From Methylobrevis pamukkalensis (GTDB taxonomy: Bacteria > Pseudomonadota > Alphaproteobacteria > Rhizobiales > Pleomorphomonadaceae): DNA of 55,833 bases. This document shows positions 3,090 through 39,641 of this stretch, piece after piece (position 1 is the first letter of the stretch; every line of letters begins with the position of its first letter). The DNA lies in the NCBI RefSeq assembly GCF_001720135.1, contig NZ_MCRJ01000007.1, positions 1-55,833 of the forward strand, given 5' to 3'. Under the pieces are notes generated by a model. It saw only the letters and a program-made list of their open reading frames with translations, was not told the DNA's origin and ran no database searches. The translations under genes were made by a program, and so were the position numbers.

Positions 3090-3237
3090 TGCTTCGCCGC
3101 ATTTCGCGTTGCTTGATATTCAAAGCATCAAAGCAGGATTACAGGTATTTGTATTGTCGGCTATTATTTTTACATTTGATATGCCTGCATACTCGCCTGT
3201 TACTTCGTTTTGGCAAAGTTATGCAGGGGTGGAAAAA

Positions 3238-18986: not shown

Positions 18987-19874
18987 TCAGAGCGATCCGC
19001 CCAGACGCCGCACCAGATGGTCCAGCTGATCGAGCGACTTGTAGCGCAGCTTCAGTTCGCCCGAGCCGTTCGCCTTGTGGCCGATCACCACCTCGACGCC
19101 GAGGAGATCCGCCAGCTGCCGCTCCAGCGCCTTGGTGTCCGCATCCTTCTCGGGGCGCGGCGGCCGCGCCTCCGCCACCGGACGCTCGGCCACCTGCTGC
19201 ACCAGCGCTTCCGTGGCACGCACGCTGAGGCCTTCGTCGACGATCTTCTTCGCAAGGCCCACCGGATCGGCCGAGGTGATCAGCGCCCTCGCGTGGCCGG
19301 CGGTCAGCTGGCCCTCGTTGAGGTAGCCCTTGATCGGGTCGGGCAGCTTCAAGAGGCGCAGGGTGTTGGCCACATGGCTGCGGCTCTTGGCAATCACGGT
19401 GGCAAGGTCGGCCTGGGAATACTGGAATTCCTCGATCAGCTGCTCGTAGCCCATCGCCTCTTCCAGCGGATTGAGATCCTGCCGCTGGACGTTCTCGATG
19501 ATCGCGATCTCGAGCGCCTCACGGTCGGTGACATCCTGGATCACCACCGGAATGTCATGCACGCCGGCCCGCTGCGCCGCGCGCCAGCGGCGCTCGCCGG
19601 CGATCAGCTCGAAGCTGCCGGGGATGGTCGGATTGGCGCGCACCAGGATCGGCTGGATCACGCCGTGGCGGCGGATCGAGGCCGTCAGGTCTTCCAGCTC
19701 GTCCTCGCGAAAGATCCGCCGCGGATTGCGCGGGTTGGCCTTGATCAGGTCCAGCGCCACCTTGCGGGTGCCGCGCGCCCGCTCCACCACCTCGAAATCG
19801 TTGCTTGCATCGCCGATCAGGGCGGCAAGACCGCGCCCGAGCCGCCGGCGTCCGCTGTCGTCCGTCATCGCCAT
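18987..19874 (-). CDS. parB: Chromosome partitioning protein ParB
   Basis: A 295-residue CTP-dependent clamp that loads at parS and spreads along DNA. N-terminal GRGLAALIGD, the ParB/Srx-fold motif GSFELIAGERRWRAAQRAG (CTP-binding Arg patch), IIENVQRQDLNPLEEA, and the helix-turn-helix region YSQADLATVIAKSRSHVANT then LRLLKLP. The C-terminal dimerisation domain ends LVRRLGGSL. It lies directly downstream of parA (55-bp gap), and matching parS sites are ~4 kb away. Confidence 0.97.
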   Translation of the reverse strand: MAMTDDSGRRRLGRGLAALIGDASNDFEVVERARGTRKVALDLIKANPRNPRRIFREDELEDLTASIRRHGVIQPILVRANPTIPGSFELIAGERRWRAAQRAGVHDIPVVIQDVTDREALEIAIIENVQRQDLNPLEEAMGYEQLIEEFQYSQADLATVIAKSRSHVANTLRLLKLPDPIKGYLNEGQLTAGHARALITSADPVGLAKKIVDEGLSVRATEALVQQVAERPVAEARPPRPEKDADTKALERQLADLLGVEVVIGHKANGSGELKLRYKSLDQLDHLVRRLGGSL

Positions 19875-19929
19875 CCTCGCCTCCCGATCCTGTCCGCCTG
19901 CCCGCCCGTCACGCCGTCCGCCCGATCTG

Positions 19930-20763
19930 TCACGCCACCGCCTTCAGCCGCCGCTCGCGCTGGATGATCTCCGAGGCGAGCTTGAGATAGGCCTGGCTGC
20001 CCGAGCACTTCAGGTCGTAGAGCAGCGCCGGCTTGCCGTAGGACGGTGCCTCGGAGACCCGGACGTTGCGCGGGATGATCGTGTCGTAGACCGCGTCGCC
20101 CATGTGCGAGCGCACGTCGGCGACCACCTGGTTGGAGAGGTTGTTGCGGCTGTCGAACATGGTGAGCACGATGCCGTGGATCGTCAGGTCCGGATTGAGG
20201 CTGGTCTTCACCTGCTCGACCGTCTGCAGAAGCTGCGACAGGCCTTCGAGCGCGAAGAATTCGCACTGCAGCGGCACCAGGATCGAATGGGCCGCGCTCA
20301 TGGCGTTGATGGTGAGGAGGTTCAGCGACGGCGGGCAGTCGACCAGCACATAGGAGAAGCGCTTGACCTTCCCGTCGCGGTCGCGCTCGCAGGCGGTGAC
20401 GTGATCGGCAATGGCATGGCGCAGCCGGAAGGCGCGATCCGCCTCGCGGGCGATCTCCAGCTCGACGCCGAGATTGTCGAGGGTCGAGGGCGCGACCGAC
20501 AGCCGCGGCACGGCCGTCTCGATCAGGCATTCGCCGAGTTCCGCCTCGCCGACGAGGAGATCATAGGTCGAGACCCGCCGCGACGAGCGGTCGATGCCGA
20601 GCCCTGTCGAGGCGTTGCCCTGCGGATCGAGATCGACGATCAGCACCTCCTCGCCGATGGCGGCGAGCGCGGTGCCGAGGTTGATGGCGGTCGTGGTCTT
20701 GCCGACGCCGCCCTTCTGGTTGGCGAGGGCCAGTACCCGGGGATGCTCAGGCAGCTGATTCAT
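19930..20763 (-). CDS. parA: Chromosome partitioning ATPase ParA
   Basis: A 277-residue Walker-type ATPase that drives segregation of ParB-parS complexes. The deviant Walker A motif is NQKGGVGKTTTAINLGTAL near residue 15, Walker A' is VLIVDLDPQGNASTGLG and Walker B is FSYVLVDCPPSLNLL. I chose ATG 20763 (MNQLPEHPRVLALANQ) because GAGAGG precedes it. A TTG 27 bp upstream is an alternative. It forms an operon with parB and lies downstream of rsmG. Confidence 0.97.
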   Translation of the reverse strand: MNQLPEHPRVLALANQKGGVGKTTTAINLGTALAAIGEEVLIVDLDPQGNASTGLGIDRSSRRVSTYDLLVGEAELGECLIETAVPRLSVAPSTLDNLGVELEIAREADRAFRLRHAIADHVTACERDRDGKVKRFSYVLVDCPPSLNLLTINAMSAAHSILVPLQCEFFALEGLSQLLQTVEQVKTSLNPDLTIHGIVLTMFDSRNNLSNQVVADVRSHMGDAVYDTIIPRNVRVSEAPSYGKPALLYDLKCSGSQAYLKLASEIIQRERRLKAVA

Positions 20764-21526
20764 CGAAGCCTCTCGTTGAGACACGGCCAACCTTCAAAAT
20801 TCGGAATGCGTCGCAGCACCTGGCCCGATCTGCAGCGGGGCCGGTCCGGGAGTTCGCCGTTGATCGACGCGGCGAGTCTAGCACCGGAAGGCAACGTTGC
20901 GCAGAACGACGATGCGACCGGCCGGATCGATCCTGCTTCGATGTTCTACCAGATCGAAAGCCCAAGATTGAGTGGTCTCGGCAAGTTCGGACGCAAAATC
21001 TTGTCCTTTGTGGAAAACACCGGCGGCACCGGCCTCCAGCAGAGGTCGGGTCAGGGCCAGCAGTTTCGGCAACGGGGCCAGCGCCCGGGCCGACACGGCC
21101 TCGATTCGGACGAGCCCCGGCGCGGTTCGTTGCATGAACGATTCGATCCGGTCGTCGTGGACGGTGACCGGCAAGGCCAGTTCCCGCGCGACCGTACGCA
21201 GGAAGGCCGCCTTGCGGCCGTTGCTCTCGACGAGATGCACCGCGGCGCCGTCCTCGTCGGCGATCAGCGTAGCAGTGACGAGCCCGGGGAAGCCAGCGCC
21301 GGACCCGACATCGACCCAGCGCCGCGCGTCGGGCAGGGCGGCGAGTGCCTGGGCGCTGTCGGCCACATGCCGGCTCCACAACTCGCCGAGGGCCGCAGGG
21401 GCCACCAGATTCTTGGCGGTCTGCCATTTGCGCACGAGGGCGACATAGGCGTGCAGCCGTTCCTCGGCCCGCGGCGTCAATGGCCAGATGCGGCGAGAGC
21501 GGCCGGGCTGTCGGGAAGACCGGGGC

Positions 21527-23596: not shown

Positions 23597-23612
23597 TGCT
23601 TCACGTGAAACA
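23597..23612. promoter_or_regulatory. parS site (one mismatch)
   Basis: TGCTTCACGTGAAACA differs from the canonical parS palindrome TGTTTCACGTGAAACA at a single position. Confidence 0.85.
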
Positions 23613-23683
23613 TTCCGCCTCCGAATCGGAGGTTGAACTTGCGACTCATTCCGGCACGCTCCGGTTATCCCCAGCCTGTGGAG

Positions 23684-23699
23684 TGTTTCACGTGAAACA
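23684..23699. promoter_or_regulatory. parS site (perfect)
   Basis: TGTTTCACGTGAAACA, an exact canonical 16-bp ParB loading site. Confidence 0.95.
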
Positions 23700-23757
23700 T
23701 CCACAGGCCAGATCCGCCGTTGCGGTCCCGAAAGGGCACAGGCAGCCTGACATCCGT

Positions 23758-25109
23758 TCACTTGCCGATGCAGAAGCTCGAAAAGATTTCCCCCAGGATA
23801 TCCTCAACCCCGACGCGCCCGGTCAGGCTGGCCAGAGCATCCGTGCCCCGGCGCAGATGCTCGGCCCGGATCTCCAGGGGGAGGTCGTCGCCCCCGGCGC
23901 TGACAAGGGCCGCTTGCAGTCGCTCCAGGCAGAGGCGCTGCCGCGCGCGTGTGACGAGGGCGGGCGTGGTCGGGGCCAGCGAAAGGAGATGCGCGGTCAG
24001 CGCACCGAGCAGCGTGTCGATACCGGCCCCTGTGGCGGCCGAAAGCTGGAACGCCGGCCCGGATGTGCCGTCCGGGCTCCCGGCGGCCTGCGACGCAGAC
24101 GCCGCGATCCGGTCGATCTTGGTCTGGACGCACCACACCGGCGGCCCGGCACTCACAATATCGTCGGGCGGGGCGCGGCCCGTCTCGTCGAGCCACAGCA
24201 CGAGATCGGCCGTCCCGGCCCGCCGCCGGGTGCGGCGGATGCCTTCCGCTTCCACGACCTCGTCGGTCTCGCGCAGGCCCGCCGTGTCTATCAGCGTCAG
24301 CGGCAGGCCGCCGAGATCGAGATGGACCTCCAGGGTGTCGCGGGTCGTGCCCGGCACGTCGGTGACGATCGCCACGTCGCGGCGGCTCAGCGTGTTGAGC
24401 AGGGTCGACTTGCCGGCGTTGGGCGGCCCCAGCAGCGCCACCTCGAAGCCGTCGCGGATCCGTTCGCCATGGGCGGACGCCGCAAGCACCTCGGACACCT
24501 GCCGTTCGACGGCGGCAACGAGATCGCCGACCTCGGCCGCGACGCTGTCCGGCACATCGTCCTCGTCGGCAAAGTCGAGATCCGCCTCGACCAGCGCCCG
24601 CGCCCGCAGCAACTGGTCCCGCCAGCCGGCGGCGCGCTCTGACAGACCGCCGTCCATCTGGCGCAGCGCCTGGCGGCGCTGCGCATCGGTCTCGGCGGAG
24701 ATGAGATCGGCGACGCCTTCCACCTCGGTCAGGTCCAGCCGGCCGTTGTCGAAGGCGCGGCGGGTAAATTCGCCCGGCTCCGCCATGCGCCAGCCGGGCA
24801 AGGCATCGAGGCAGCGCAGCAGCGCGGCGACCACCGCCCGGCTGCCGTGACACTGGAACTCGGCGCAGTCCTCGCCGGTGTAGCTCGCGGGACCGGGCAG
24901 GAAGATCACGATCGCCTGGTCGATCAGGCTGCCGTCCGCCGGATCGCGCAGCGACCGCAGGCTGGCGCGACGCGGCGCAGGCAGACCACCCGCGATGCTT
25001 TCGAGGCCGAATCGAATGCCGGGGCCACTGGCCCGGATCACCGCCACGCCGGCCGCGGCCGCCCGGAGGAGAGGGCATGGATCGTGTGGTGCAGGGTGTC
25101 TGGGAACAT
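23758..25109 (-). CDS. mnmE: tRNA modification GTPase MnmE, frame broken near 25056
   Basis: GTPase partner of MnmG in wobble-uridine modification. The main open frame begins only at AVIRASGPG, lacking the conserved N-terminus. In another frame just upstream, ATG 25109 gives [18 protein letters not shown], which is the expected start. Joining the two requires one base in the GGCCGCGGCC stretch at ~25056. The total of 1352 bases is one short of a multiple of three; repaired length is 450. The G1 motif is [21 protein letters not shown]2/G3 [11 protein letters not shown] and [12 protein letters not shown], and the C-terminus is [11 protein letters not shown] with the catalytic FCIGK Cys. Confidence 0.92.
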
Positions 25110-25211
25110 CAACTCTTCCCGGTGGCTTCTATCCTCGGAGGGTCGAAGGGCTTAGCCTTCGGCCGACCTTCGATGCCACGCCCGCCCGCGAAAGAAAACA
25201 GGACGCCGCCA

Positions 25212-27239
25212 ATGACCAATCGCCTTCGCGACGAGACGAGCCCCTACCTGCTGCAGCATGCCGACAATCCGGTCGACTGGTGGCCCTGGGGGCCGGAGGC
25301 GCTCGCCCATGCGTCGGAGACGGGAAAGCCGATCCTGCTCTCCGTCGGTTATGCCGCCTGCCACTGGTGCCACGTGATGGCACACGAGAGTTTCGAGGAT
25401 GACGAGATCGCCGCGCTGATGAACCGGCTGTTCGTCAATGTGAAGGTCGACCGCGAGGAGCGGCCGGACATCGACCAGATCTACATGTCGGCCCTGCAGG
25501 CGCTGGGCGTCCATGGCGGCTGGCCGATGACCATGTTCCTGACCCCCGACGGCGTGCCCTTCTGGGGTGGCACCTATTTTCCGAAGACCTCCCGCTACGG
25601 CCAGCCGGCCTTCGCCGACATTCTCAACGGCGTGGCGGCGAGCCTGGCGCAGCGGCCGGACCAGGTGGCCGAGAACCGCAAGGCGCTGATGGCCCATCTG
25701 TCGCGCCGCGACGACAAGGGTCCGCTCGGACTCGACGGCTCCGTGCTGGATCTCGCAACCGACAAGCTGCTGTCGATCATGGACCCGATCAACGGCGGCT
25801 TCCGCGGCGCGCCGAAGTTCCCGCAGGCGCCGGTCCTCGACCTGATGCTGCGCAGCTTCGCCCGGCGCCGCGATCCCGGCTTCCTCGACACCGTGCTTCT
25901 CACGCTGGAGCGGATCGCCAACGGCGGCATCTACGACCATCTCGGCGGCGGCTTCTCCCGCTACTCGGTCGACGACCGCTGGCTGGTGCCGCATTTCGAG
26001 AAGATGCTCTACGACAATGGCCAGTTGCTCGGCCTCTTCGCCCGCGCCTATGCGGCGACGGGATCCAGTCTGTTTCGCCGCCGAATCGAGGAGACGGTGA
26101 CCTGGCTGGGCCGCGAGATGCTGCTGCCCGAGGGCGCGTTTGCCGCCAGCCTCGACGCCGACACCGAGGGCGAGGAAGGCCGTGTCTATGTCTGGAGCCG
26201 CGCCGAGATCGTGACCGAACTCGGCCCCCAGGCCGATCAGTTCGCCGCCGTCTACGACGTGACCGAGGCCGGCAACTGGGAAGGGGTCAACGTCCTCAAC
26301 CGGCTGCAGCCGTCGACGATCCCCGTCGACGAGGACCAGCTGGCGCGCCTGCGCATGGCGCTGCTGACCGCGCGGATGCGGCGCGTTCAGCCCGGCCGCG
26401 ACGACAAGATCCTCGCCGACTGGAACGCGCTGGCGATCTCCGGGCTTGCCATCGCCGCCATCGCCCTGCGCCGCGACGACTGGCTCGACCTGGCAATCAC
26501 CGCCTATCGCGGCATCACCGCCACGATGGCGCGGGACGGAAGGCTCGGCCACAGCGCCCGCGGCGGCCGTCTCGTCTTCCCCGGCATGGCCACCGACCAT
26601 GCCGCCATGGCGGTTGCCGCGCTCGATCTCCACCAGGCGACCTTCGATCCGCTGTGGCTGGAAGAGGCAGCGCGCTGGCTCGACGCGCTCGATCGCCATC
26701 ACCGCGACGAGAACGGGCTCTACTTCATGTCGGCCGACGATGCGCCGGGGCTGATCGTCCGGCCGCGGTCGATCCTCGACGAGGCGACGCCCAATGCCAA
26801 TGGCCTTGCCGCCGACGCCTCGGTGCGGCTCCATCTCCTCACCGGCGAGGCGCGGCATCTGGATCGGGCCGACGCCATCTTCACCGCCTGCGGCGGGGCG
26901 GTGGCCCGCAATGTCGTCGGCACCGCCAGCCTGATGGCCGCCTTCACCCGTAGGCTCGATCTCGCCTCGGTGGTGATCGTCGGCGAAGCGGGACCGGACA
27001 GGGAGGCGTTGCTGACAACCGCACGCACGCTCTTTCCCGAAGCGGTTCCTTTCGTCGCCGAATCGACCGAGGCGCTCGGCGCCGGGCATCCCGCCCATGG
27101 CAAGACCGCGATCGACGGCCGGCCTGCGGCCTATCTCTGCCGCAGCAGCACCTGCTCGCTGCCGGTGACCACCCCGGAAGACCTGGCGGCGCTCGACGAG
27201 GGGCAGGCCGCCGAGGACGCGATCGACGACGCGTCCTGA
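25212..27239 (+). CDS. DUF255 thioredoxin-domain protein (YyaL/SSP411 family)
   Basis: 675 residues. The N-terminal thioredoxin-like domain (Thioredox_DsbH, residues ~1-165) has [18 protein letters not shown] and the CxxC site [17 protein letters not shown]. The rest is an (alpha/alpha)6-barrel of the glycoside-hydrolase/epimerase type, with [31 protein letters not shown] and [17 protein letters not shown]. The function is not established, and animal SSP411 is linked to spermatogenesis. It sits on the strand opposite to rho and mnmE, inserted between them. No signal peptide, so probably cytosolic. Confidence 0.9.
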
Positions 27240-29469: not shown

Positions 29470-30510
29470 TCAGGCGCCGCCGGTGCGCTCCCGCACGCGG
29501 CGGATCATCCGCGCGACATTCTCGACCGGGGCTTCGGGCGTGATGCCGTGGCCGAGGTTGAACACGAACGGCCCGCCGGCCAGCGCGTCCACGACGAGAT
29601 CCACCGCCCGGTCGAGCGCCTCGCCGCCGATCACCACCCGCAGCGGATCGACGTTGCCCTGCACCGCGCAGAGCGGCTGCACCGCGTCACGGGCAAAATC
29701 GAGCGGCACCGACCAGTCCATGCCGACGGCGGTCACCCCCGTCGCCCTCACATAGGCCGGCAGCCGGGCGCCGGCGCCCTTGGGAAAGCCGATGATCCGC
29801 GCGCCGGGCACCTTCGCGCGCACGCCCTCGACGATGCGCCGCATCGGCTCCACGGCAAAGGCGGCAAAGCCCTCCTCGTCGAGGGGGCCGGCCCAGCTGT
29901 CGAACACCTGCACCGCGTCGGCGCCCGCCTCGAACTGCGCGACGAGATAGAGGATCGAGGCTTCGGTCAGCCGGTCGATCAGGGTGGTGAAATTCTCGCG
30001 CTCCAGCAGCGCCGCCCGTCGCGCCGGGCCCTGGTCGGGCGTACCCCGTCCCGCCACCATGTAGGTCGCCACGGTCCAGGGCGCCCCGCAGAAGCCGAGC
30101 AGCGTGGTCTCGGCGGGCAGGGCCGCCCGGATGCGCGACACCGCCTCGAAGACCGGCTGCAGGCCCGGGACGACCTGTGCGGAATCGAGATCGGCCGCCT
30201 CTTCCAGGGCCATCGGATCGAGCCGCGGGCCTTCGCCCTCCACGAAGCGCACCTTGCGGCCGAGCGCATCGGGAATGACGAGGATGTCGGAGAACAGGAT
30301 CGCTGCATCAAAGCCGAAACGGCGGATCGGCTGGAGCGTGACCTCGGTGGCGAGCTCCGGATTGTAGCAGAGATCGAGAAAGCCACCGGCCTTCGCCCGG
30401 GTTGCCCGATACTCCGGGAGATAGCGTCCCGCCTGACGCATCATCCAGATCGGAGGGACGGTGCTCGTTCGTCCGTCGAGAACCTCGAGCATCTTGCGTG
30501 TCGGTGCCAT
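29470..30510 (-). CDS. hemE: Uroporphyrinogen decarboxylase
   Basis: A 346-residue enzyme converting uroporphyrinogen III to coproporphyrinogen III in heme synthesis. The signature [20 protein letters not shown] is near residue 20; the catalytic Asp region is [20 protein letters not shown], and [15 protein letters not shown] and FDSWAGPL follow. The C-terminus is [19 protein letters not shown]. In alphaproteobacteria hemE borders the chromosomal origin (well known in Caulobacter), consistent with the adjoining gap. Confidence 0.97.
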
Positions 30511-30747
30511 CGTCGCGCTCCGTCCTCCCTCACTTCAAAAAGAGAGAATCTTATTTGAAAGAGATCTGTAGTTTCTGTTAGGGGGCTGGATATCAGGGAT
30601 TGCCGTCCGTCCACAATGGCCGCGCCCGCCGCCGGCCCGGCAGGGACGTGGTGGAGAAAAAGGCGGGACTTGTCGACAGACGGGGATGCGGGGACCGCTT
30701 TCGCAGCGATTCCAACGACCTGACGCCGCCGCGCATCGGTGAGTGCC

Positions 30748-30756
30748 TGTGGATGA
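30748..30756 (-). promoter_or_regulatory. DnaA box (8/9)
   Basis: TGTGGATGA, reverse complement TCATCCACA, one mismatch to TTATCCACA. Confidence 0.6.
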
Positions 30757-30926
30757 TCCGGGGAGAAGTCCGGCGCCGGCCACGGGTTTACGAAGTCTTC
30801 ATCTTTTCCACCGGGGGTCCGGGGACGGAAGGCCGTCGTCTGCCCTGTGGACGGAATCCGGGGTTTCCCACAGGGCGATCGGGGGCCGGGTCCGGGGTCC
30901 GAAGTTATCGACTCCCCGGCCGCCGC

Positions 30927-30935
30927 TGTGGACAA
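30927..30935 (-). promoter_or_regulatory. DnaA box (8/9)
   Basis: TGTGGACAA, reverse complement TTGTCCACA, one mismatch to TTATCCACA. Confidence 0.6.
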
Positions 30936-31079
30936 ACGGCGGGAGAGCCGCCCGCCTCGACATCCAACCCGTTGCCGGTGATACTCTTTTCGGCCGGCTC
31001 CGCGCGGGGAGGCCACCGCCTTCCGGCGACCATCCGGTCGGCGGGGACATCGGCGGCGACGTCGATAGGGGCAGGACGC

Positions 31080-31927
31080 ATGGCGGACGGAAAGACCTAT
31101 TTCCACATCCATCTCATCTCCGACTCCACCGGCGAGACCCTGCTCACGGTGGCCCGCGCCGTGGCGGCGCGCTACGACGACATCGCCGCGATCGAGCATG
31201 TCTATCCGCTGGTGCGCACGCCCGGCATCTGGAGCGGGTGATCGAGGACATCGAGGCGGCGCCCGGCATCGTGCTCTACACCATCGTCGACCGCGAGCTC
31301 TGCGCCCGGCTGGAGACCGCCTGCAAGGCCGCGGCGCTGCCGGTGGTCTCGGTGCTCGATCCGGTGGTGGAGGTGTTCCACGGCTATCTCAACCTGCCGG
31401 CCACCATGCGCGTCGGCGGCCAGCATGTGCTCGACGCCGGCTACTTCGACCGGATCGAGGCGCTGAACTACACCATGGCCCATGACGACGGCCAGCTGCC
31501 CGAGGACATCGAGACCGCCGACGTGGTGATCATCGGCATCAGCCGCACCTCGAAGACGCCGACCAGCATGTATCTGGCGATCCGCGGCCTGAAGGTCACC
31601 AATCTGCCGCTGGTGCCGGGCATGGCCTTGCCCGACGCGGTGACGAAGGCGCGCCGGCCGCTGATCGTCGGCCTGATCGCCAGCGCCGAGAGCATCCTCC
31701 ACATCCGCCAGAACCGGCTTCTGGCGCTTGGCGCCGCCAGCCAGCCCTCGACCTATGTCGACCGGGCCGCGATCGCGCGCGAGGTGGCGCAGTCGCGGCG
31801 GCTGTTCGTGGAGCAGGGCTGGCCGGTGATCGACGTGACGCGGCGTTCGATCGAGGAAACCGCCGCGGCGATCCTTGCGCTTCACCATCAACACCGCTAC
31901 GGCAAGGACACCGTGCCGATCTCCTGA
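31080..31927 (+). CDS. PPDK/PEP synthase regulatory kinase-phosphorylase (DUF299), frame broken near 31224
   Basis: Bifunctional Ser/Thr kinase and Pi-dependent phosphorylase that switches pyruvate phosphate dikinase or PEP synthase off and on. ATG 31080, after AGGGGCAGGA, gives [20 protein letters not shown], the conserved N-terminus, and reads to [10 protein letters not shown], where the frame breaks. The next frame continues [20 protein letters not shown] and carries the P-loop [17 protein letters not shown] and LVPGMALPD. The 848-base length is one short of a multiple of three; an extra G in CCCGGCATC restores ~282 residues. It opens the origin-proximal plus-strand cluster. Confidence 0.92.
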
Positions 31928-34941: not shown

Positions 34942-35457
34942 TCAGTTGGCCGGGCCCTGCTGCTGCTGGGCCTGAGCCTGGGCGGCCATCCGCTGGATAT
35001 ACTGCTGGTAGAGCGCCACGAAATCGATCGGATCGATCATCAGCGGCATGAAGCCGCCGTTGCGGGTGGCGTCGGCGATGATCTGCCGGGCGAAGGGGAA
35101 CAGCAGGCGCGGGCATTCGATCATCACGAAGGCATGCAGGTGCTGCTCGGGCACGTTCTGGATGCGGAACACGCCGCCATAGGTGAGGTCGGCGACGAAG
35201 ACGACCTCCTCGCCATGGCTGGCCCTGGCCTCGAGCTTGAGGTCGACCTCGAACTCCCCGGCAGCGCGCGCCCGCGGGATCACGTTGACGTTGACGTTGA
35301 TCGAGGGCGCCTTGTCGCGGGCGACGAGGCTCTGCGGCGCGCGCGGGTTCTCGAAGGAGAAGTCCTTGATATACTGCGCGGCGACGTTGAGGGACGGCTG
35401 GGCCTGCGGCGTGGACGGCGTGGAGTCTGGCGCGACGGAGCTCATCTGGTCATTCAT
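34942..35457 (-). CDS. secB: Protein-export chaperone SecB
   Basis: A 171-residue cytosolic chaperone that keeps preproteins unfolded and passes them to SecA. Signatures are [60 protein letters not shown] and [20 protein letters not shown] then [13 protein letters not shown]. The tail is Gln/Ala-rich. ATG 35457 (MNDQMSS) is preferred to an ATG 36 bp upstream. It diverges from glsA. Confidence 0.96.
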
Positions 35458-35598
35458 CCTGAAGCGACGATAGGGATCGGGTCGCCCCCACATCTGGTCA
35501 ACGCGGCGACGGTCGGTCGGATGACGGGGCTAACACGGGGCGCGCGTGCTATCAAGACAAGGGTCTTGTGCACCTGCGGGGAGGGGGAAAGGGACACG

Positions 35599-39625: not shown

Positions 39626-39641
39626 TGTTTCACGTGAAATG
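39626..39641. promoter_or_regulatory. parS-like site (14/16)
   Basis: TGTTTCACGTGAAATG matches the canonical parS in 14 of 16 positions with an intact TTTCACGTGAAA core. It lies ~9 kb right of the putative origin and inside the 5' part of the methyltransferase gene. Confidence 0.6.

Follow-up and report, generated by a model that had tools for sequence, protein, structure and literature searches.

The intergenic gap at 30511-31079 of the window (the whole 55,833-nucleotide stretch of DNA that was analysed) is, judging from its sequence, most probably an oriC of the hemE/COG1806 type, the kind of chromosomal replication origin described in Caulobacter. We put the probability of this reading at about 0.93. 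A probable chromosomal origin between hemE and the PPDK regulator had been proposed in the first-pass annotation, and the proposal is supported by a cluster of DnaA boxes, by synteny, and by a skew switch in relatives. The arrangement in this alphaproteobacterium of the order Hyphomicrobiales is the same as in Caulobacter and many relatives, a sound but ordinary case. The features of the window are listed below.

18990-19874, minus strand: parB (Pfam ParB_N/HTH_ParB/ParB_C); parB and parA together span 18987-20790
19933-20790, minus strand: parA (Pfam AAA_31)
23597-23699, no strand: two parS sites in the mnmG-mnmE gap, the candidate centromere-like partner of the origin region (motif match)
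29473-30510, minus strand: hemE, uroporphyrinogen decarboxylase, left border (Pfam PF01208)
30511-31079, no strand: putative oriC (DnaA-box cluster, synteny, skew switch in relatives)
30534-30580, no strand: AT-rich segment, candidate unwinding element (72% AT; conservation)
30546, 30708 (to 30712), 30854 and 30910, no strand: GANTC sites, candidate CcrM sites (motif match)
30588-30618, plus strand: conserved single-copy core GGATATCAGGGATTGCCGTCCGTCCACAATG, the 31 bp with the highest conservation in the gap
30650-30658, minus strand: DnaA box 7/9, TTCTCCACC (consensus match, as for all boxes below)
30670-30678, plus strand: DnaA box 7/9, TTGTCGACA
30748-30756, minus strand: DnaA box 8/9, TCATCCACA
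30804-30812, plus strand: DnaA box 7/9, TTTTCCACC
30864-30872, plus strand: DnaA box 7/9, TTTCCCACA
30905-30913, plus strand: DnaA box 7/9, TTATCGACT
30927-30935, minus strand: DnaA box 8/9, TTGTCCACA
31080-31927, plus strand: PPSR, kinase/pyrophosphorylase, COG1806/DUF299, right border (Pfam PF03618)

The gap is 569 bp long and lies between the hemE start at 30510 and the PPSR ATG at 31080, which agrees with the earlier statement that hemE borders it. The border genes are those of the Cori type, with PF01208 on one side and PF03618 on the other, and hemE-PPSR adjacency was found in 26 of 29 relatives, with gaps of 363-661 bp. Gene orientation had been described as diverging from the gap; this holds roughly, with the pattern broken by 25077-27239 on the left and by secB (34942-35493) on the right. 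No Rfam RNA was found in 30511-31079. PPSR is split between two frames, with its start in the frame of 31080 and its remainder in the frame of 31229-31927; the break near 31217-31229 looks like a single-base indel and is probably an assembly or sequencing error. The dnaA gene of the same genome (G000:C94:17752-18239) matches in two pieces with the frame broken between them, which again suggests base errors in this assembly.

The Caulobacter origin, invoked in the first-pass annotation as the established hemE-adjacent case, was mapped experimentally between hemE and COG1806, the same position as the gap (PMC1914354). Its elements are an AT-rich stretch of ~40 bp, DnaA boxes, an IHF site and CtrA sites, five in number (PMC1914354), and the Caulobacter G-box and W-box are TGATCCACA and TCCCCA, respectively (PMC4285127). 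The gap resembles the Caulobacter crescentus origin (Cori) in its border genes, similar size, AT-rich segment of ~40 bp and GANTC sites (PMC1914354; PMC4285127).

DnaA boxes were scored as matches to the consensus TTATCCACA, where 8/9 means one mismatch and 7/9 means two. Two 8/9 boxes had been claimed and were found at 30748 and 30927, while the 7/9 boxes number five (30650, 30670, 30804, 30864, 30905) rather than four. In total the gap holds seven boxes of at least 7/9 and two of 8/9, compared to 0.5 and 0.02 expected after shuffling of its sequence; in 200 shuffles there was no case of two boxes with at most one mismatch or of seven boxes with at most two. It is the densest DnaA-box place of the whole window, with eight boxes in 569 bp when an adjoining site in hemE is included, and the runner-up had four. 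Among stretches sampled from three relatives (1.19, 0.40 and 0.40 Mb), the hemE gap was likewise the densest cluster of boxes with at most two mismatches. A stronger cluster elsewhere, which would have told against the origin, was thus found neither in the window nor in these samples. The boxes are weak, with no 9/9 box in the gap. As in Cori, moderate boxes one change from TTATCCACA are present, but they read TCATCCACA and TTGTCCACA instead of the G-box TGATCCACA.

The AT-rich flank noted earlier at 30534-30580 was confirmed: it is 72% AT, compared to 31% for the window. No 47-mer of the window is richer in AT, and only one other place, 3135-3184, equals it. The gap overall is only 34% AT. 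All four GANTC sites reported in the gap are present, where the GANTC density of the window itself predicts 0.87 (P(≥4) = 0.012), and the site at 30546-30550, inside the AT-rich segment, is kept in 19 of 19 aligned family gaps. Across the window GANTC is strongly depleted, with 85 sites found and 291 obtained from shuffles. Unlike Cori, the gap lacks a TCCCCA W-box, and no sequence in it comes closer than two mismatches to the CtrA site TTAA-N7-TTAA. Perfect CtrA sites are kept in about sixteen relatives, many family members having one or two, and CtrA sites are missing from some accepted alphaproteobacterial origins (PMC1914354); their absence is therefore regarded as a difference within the type and is not needed for membership.

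Phylogenetic footprinting of 19 gaps, the window's own and 18 from the same family, singled out the 31-bp core, whose conservation was 0.89 compared to a gap mean of 0.62. The core lies beside the AT-rich segment and has the form GGATANCAGGGAT-N10-TCCACAAT. A search pattern of GGATANCAGGGAT, 5-12 bases and CCACAATS had a single match, always at hemE, in each of 15 out of 20 genomes of the family, and the remaining five carry variants of the core; the same pattern read backwards, used as a control, gave no match in the family genomes. A strict pattern, which required a final C absent from the window, had no match in 385 genomes of the class, suggesting that the core in its exact form is confined to the family. 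In the relative G002 the core starts with an 8/9 DnaA box, TTATCCACG (CGTGGATAA), and the first half of the window's core is therefore read as a degenerate R1-like DnaA box. Inspection by eye, unscored, revealed no clear run of DnaA-trios (BUS: at least three NAN trios by a DnaA box) beside the core.

The hemE gaps of Rhizobiaceae and other Hyphomicrobiales resemble that of the window in being AT-rich and then, in many cases, carrying a GTGG-TA-CA-GGATT-type core 60-110 bp from hemE, but this core differs from the window's at 2-4 of 12 fixed bases. Bradyrhizobium-type loci, among those read, differ in mostly having no PPSR beside hemE. A rhizobial hemE region also occurs in a record titled Bacillus subtilis strain SK6B4, which is probably mislabelled. 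A further likeness is to the R1 region of Escherichia coli oriC, in which GGATAACAAGGATC follows AT-rich 13-mers, as GGATANCAGGGAT does the AT-rich segment in the window. A 39-bp E. coli probe for this order corresponded to one place per chromosome, the R1 box of oriC. E. coli oriC differs in its neighbouring genes, in the rest of its box array, and in GATC instead of GANTC methylation. Tentatively, and at odds that we consider to be against it, the core could be a family-specific, strictly positioned two-part site for DnaA (or for DnaA and a partner protein), forming an unwinding module equivalent to the E. coli R1 region, with CtrA control lost in the GC-rich lineage of the window. The conserved core offers a short target for work on DnaA-driven unwinding in Hyphomicrobiales.

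GC skew was taken from relatives because the genome to which the window belongs, as one whole contig, is too fragmented (4.38 Mb, 348 contigs, 86% complete); nothing can be learned from the skew of the 55-kb window by itself. Stretches were sampled from three relatives, G004, G012 and G057, whose hemE-bearing contig is a near-complete chromosome. In G012 the skew was -0.016 to the PPSR side of the gap and +0.030 to its hemE side; the corresponding values were -0.017 and +0.092 in G057, and +0.030 and -0.043 in G004. The skew check proposed earlier therefore gave a sign change at the hemE-PPSR gap in all three relatives, that of the window's own replicon not being usable, and local skew minima fell 1.5-4 kb from the gap. 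The coarse cumulative skew of G004 dropped until hemE (5.065 Mb) and had its maximum at around 2.1-2.4 Mb, roughly half a chromosome off. A second, slightly lower dip in G004, 95 kb from the gap, probably reflects an insertion or rearrangement that came later. Gene content can shift the skew over a few kb, which the agreement of three genomes makes unlikely here.

The nearness of parS and parAB was also borne out, with a perfect parS, TGTTTCACGTGAAACA, at 23684 and a one-mismatch parS at 23597, 7 kb from the hemE gap. This is a further likeness to Cori, since parS in Caulobacter lies about 7 kb from the origin. Within 23597-23705 the two parS sites are interleaved with TTATCCCCA and ACATCCACA, and ParB and DnaA sites overlap at 23697-23699.

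The best-surviving alternative places the origin in this mnmG-mnmE gap (23.44-23.76 kb), with its parS sites and DnaA-like boxes, and leaves the hemE gap merely a promoter region. Its boxes (TTATCCCCA at 23665 and ACATCCACA at 23697) adjoin the two parS sites and form the second-best cluster of the window, E. coli oriC adjoins mnmG, and G012 and G057 also have box clusters several kb from hemE. However, the boxes there are far fewer, two weaker ones, and in the three relatives the hemE-to-mnmE arm already shares the skew of the replichore to which it belongs, which places the switch at the hemE gap. An origin between mnmG and mnmE was therefore rejected and is very improbable.

Still less credible is that the hemE gap serves only as a divergent promoter for hemE and PPSR, its DnaA boxes being chance matches. 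A shared gap of this kind is found between any two divergent genes, and most of the boxes are weak, but this reading is opposed by the box count relative to shuffles and by the skew switch. The core, moreover, stays with hemE after PPSR has gone from the neighbourhood: in G002 PPSR was not found beside hemE, yet the core is present together with three 8/9 boxes. An origin beside dnaA, a common arrangement outside alphaproteobacteria, was rejected as the least probable of all, being contradicted by the distance from dnaA to hemE (72 kb in G012, about 262 kb in G004 and about 121 kb in G057), by the absence of any 8/9 box near dnaA in the dnaA loci retrieved, and by the skew of G012, which is still negative from dnaA to hemE.

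For the hemE-PPSR gap as oriC, location and motif content were read directly from the DNA, and binding, melting, methylation and timing would follow by analogy with the known family. DnaA-ATP would bind the R1-like box of the core, at 30588, together with the weak and moderate boxes across 30650-30935. The DnaA oligomer would then grow toward hemE and melt the AT-rich segment at 30534-30580, after which helicase loading would give rise to two diverging forks. The GANTC sites may couple firing to methylation by CcrM, and ParAB may act on the parS sites, 7 kb off, to segregate them immediately after they are replicated. An origin placed on a contig from a poorly studied group could help growth-rate estimates from read depth (peak-to-trough) and assembly orientation. 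A third parS-like site, with two mismatches, was found at 39626-39641, ~8.5 kb from the gap on its PPSR side.
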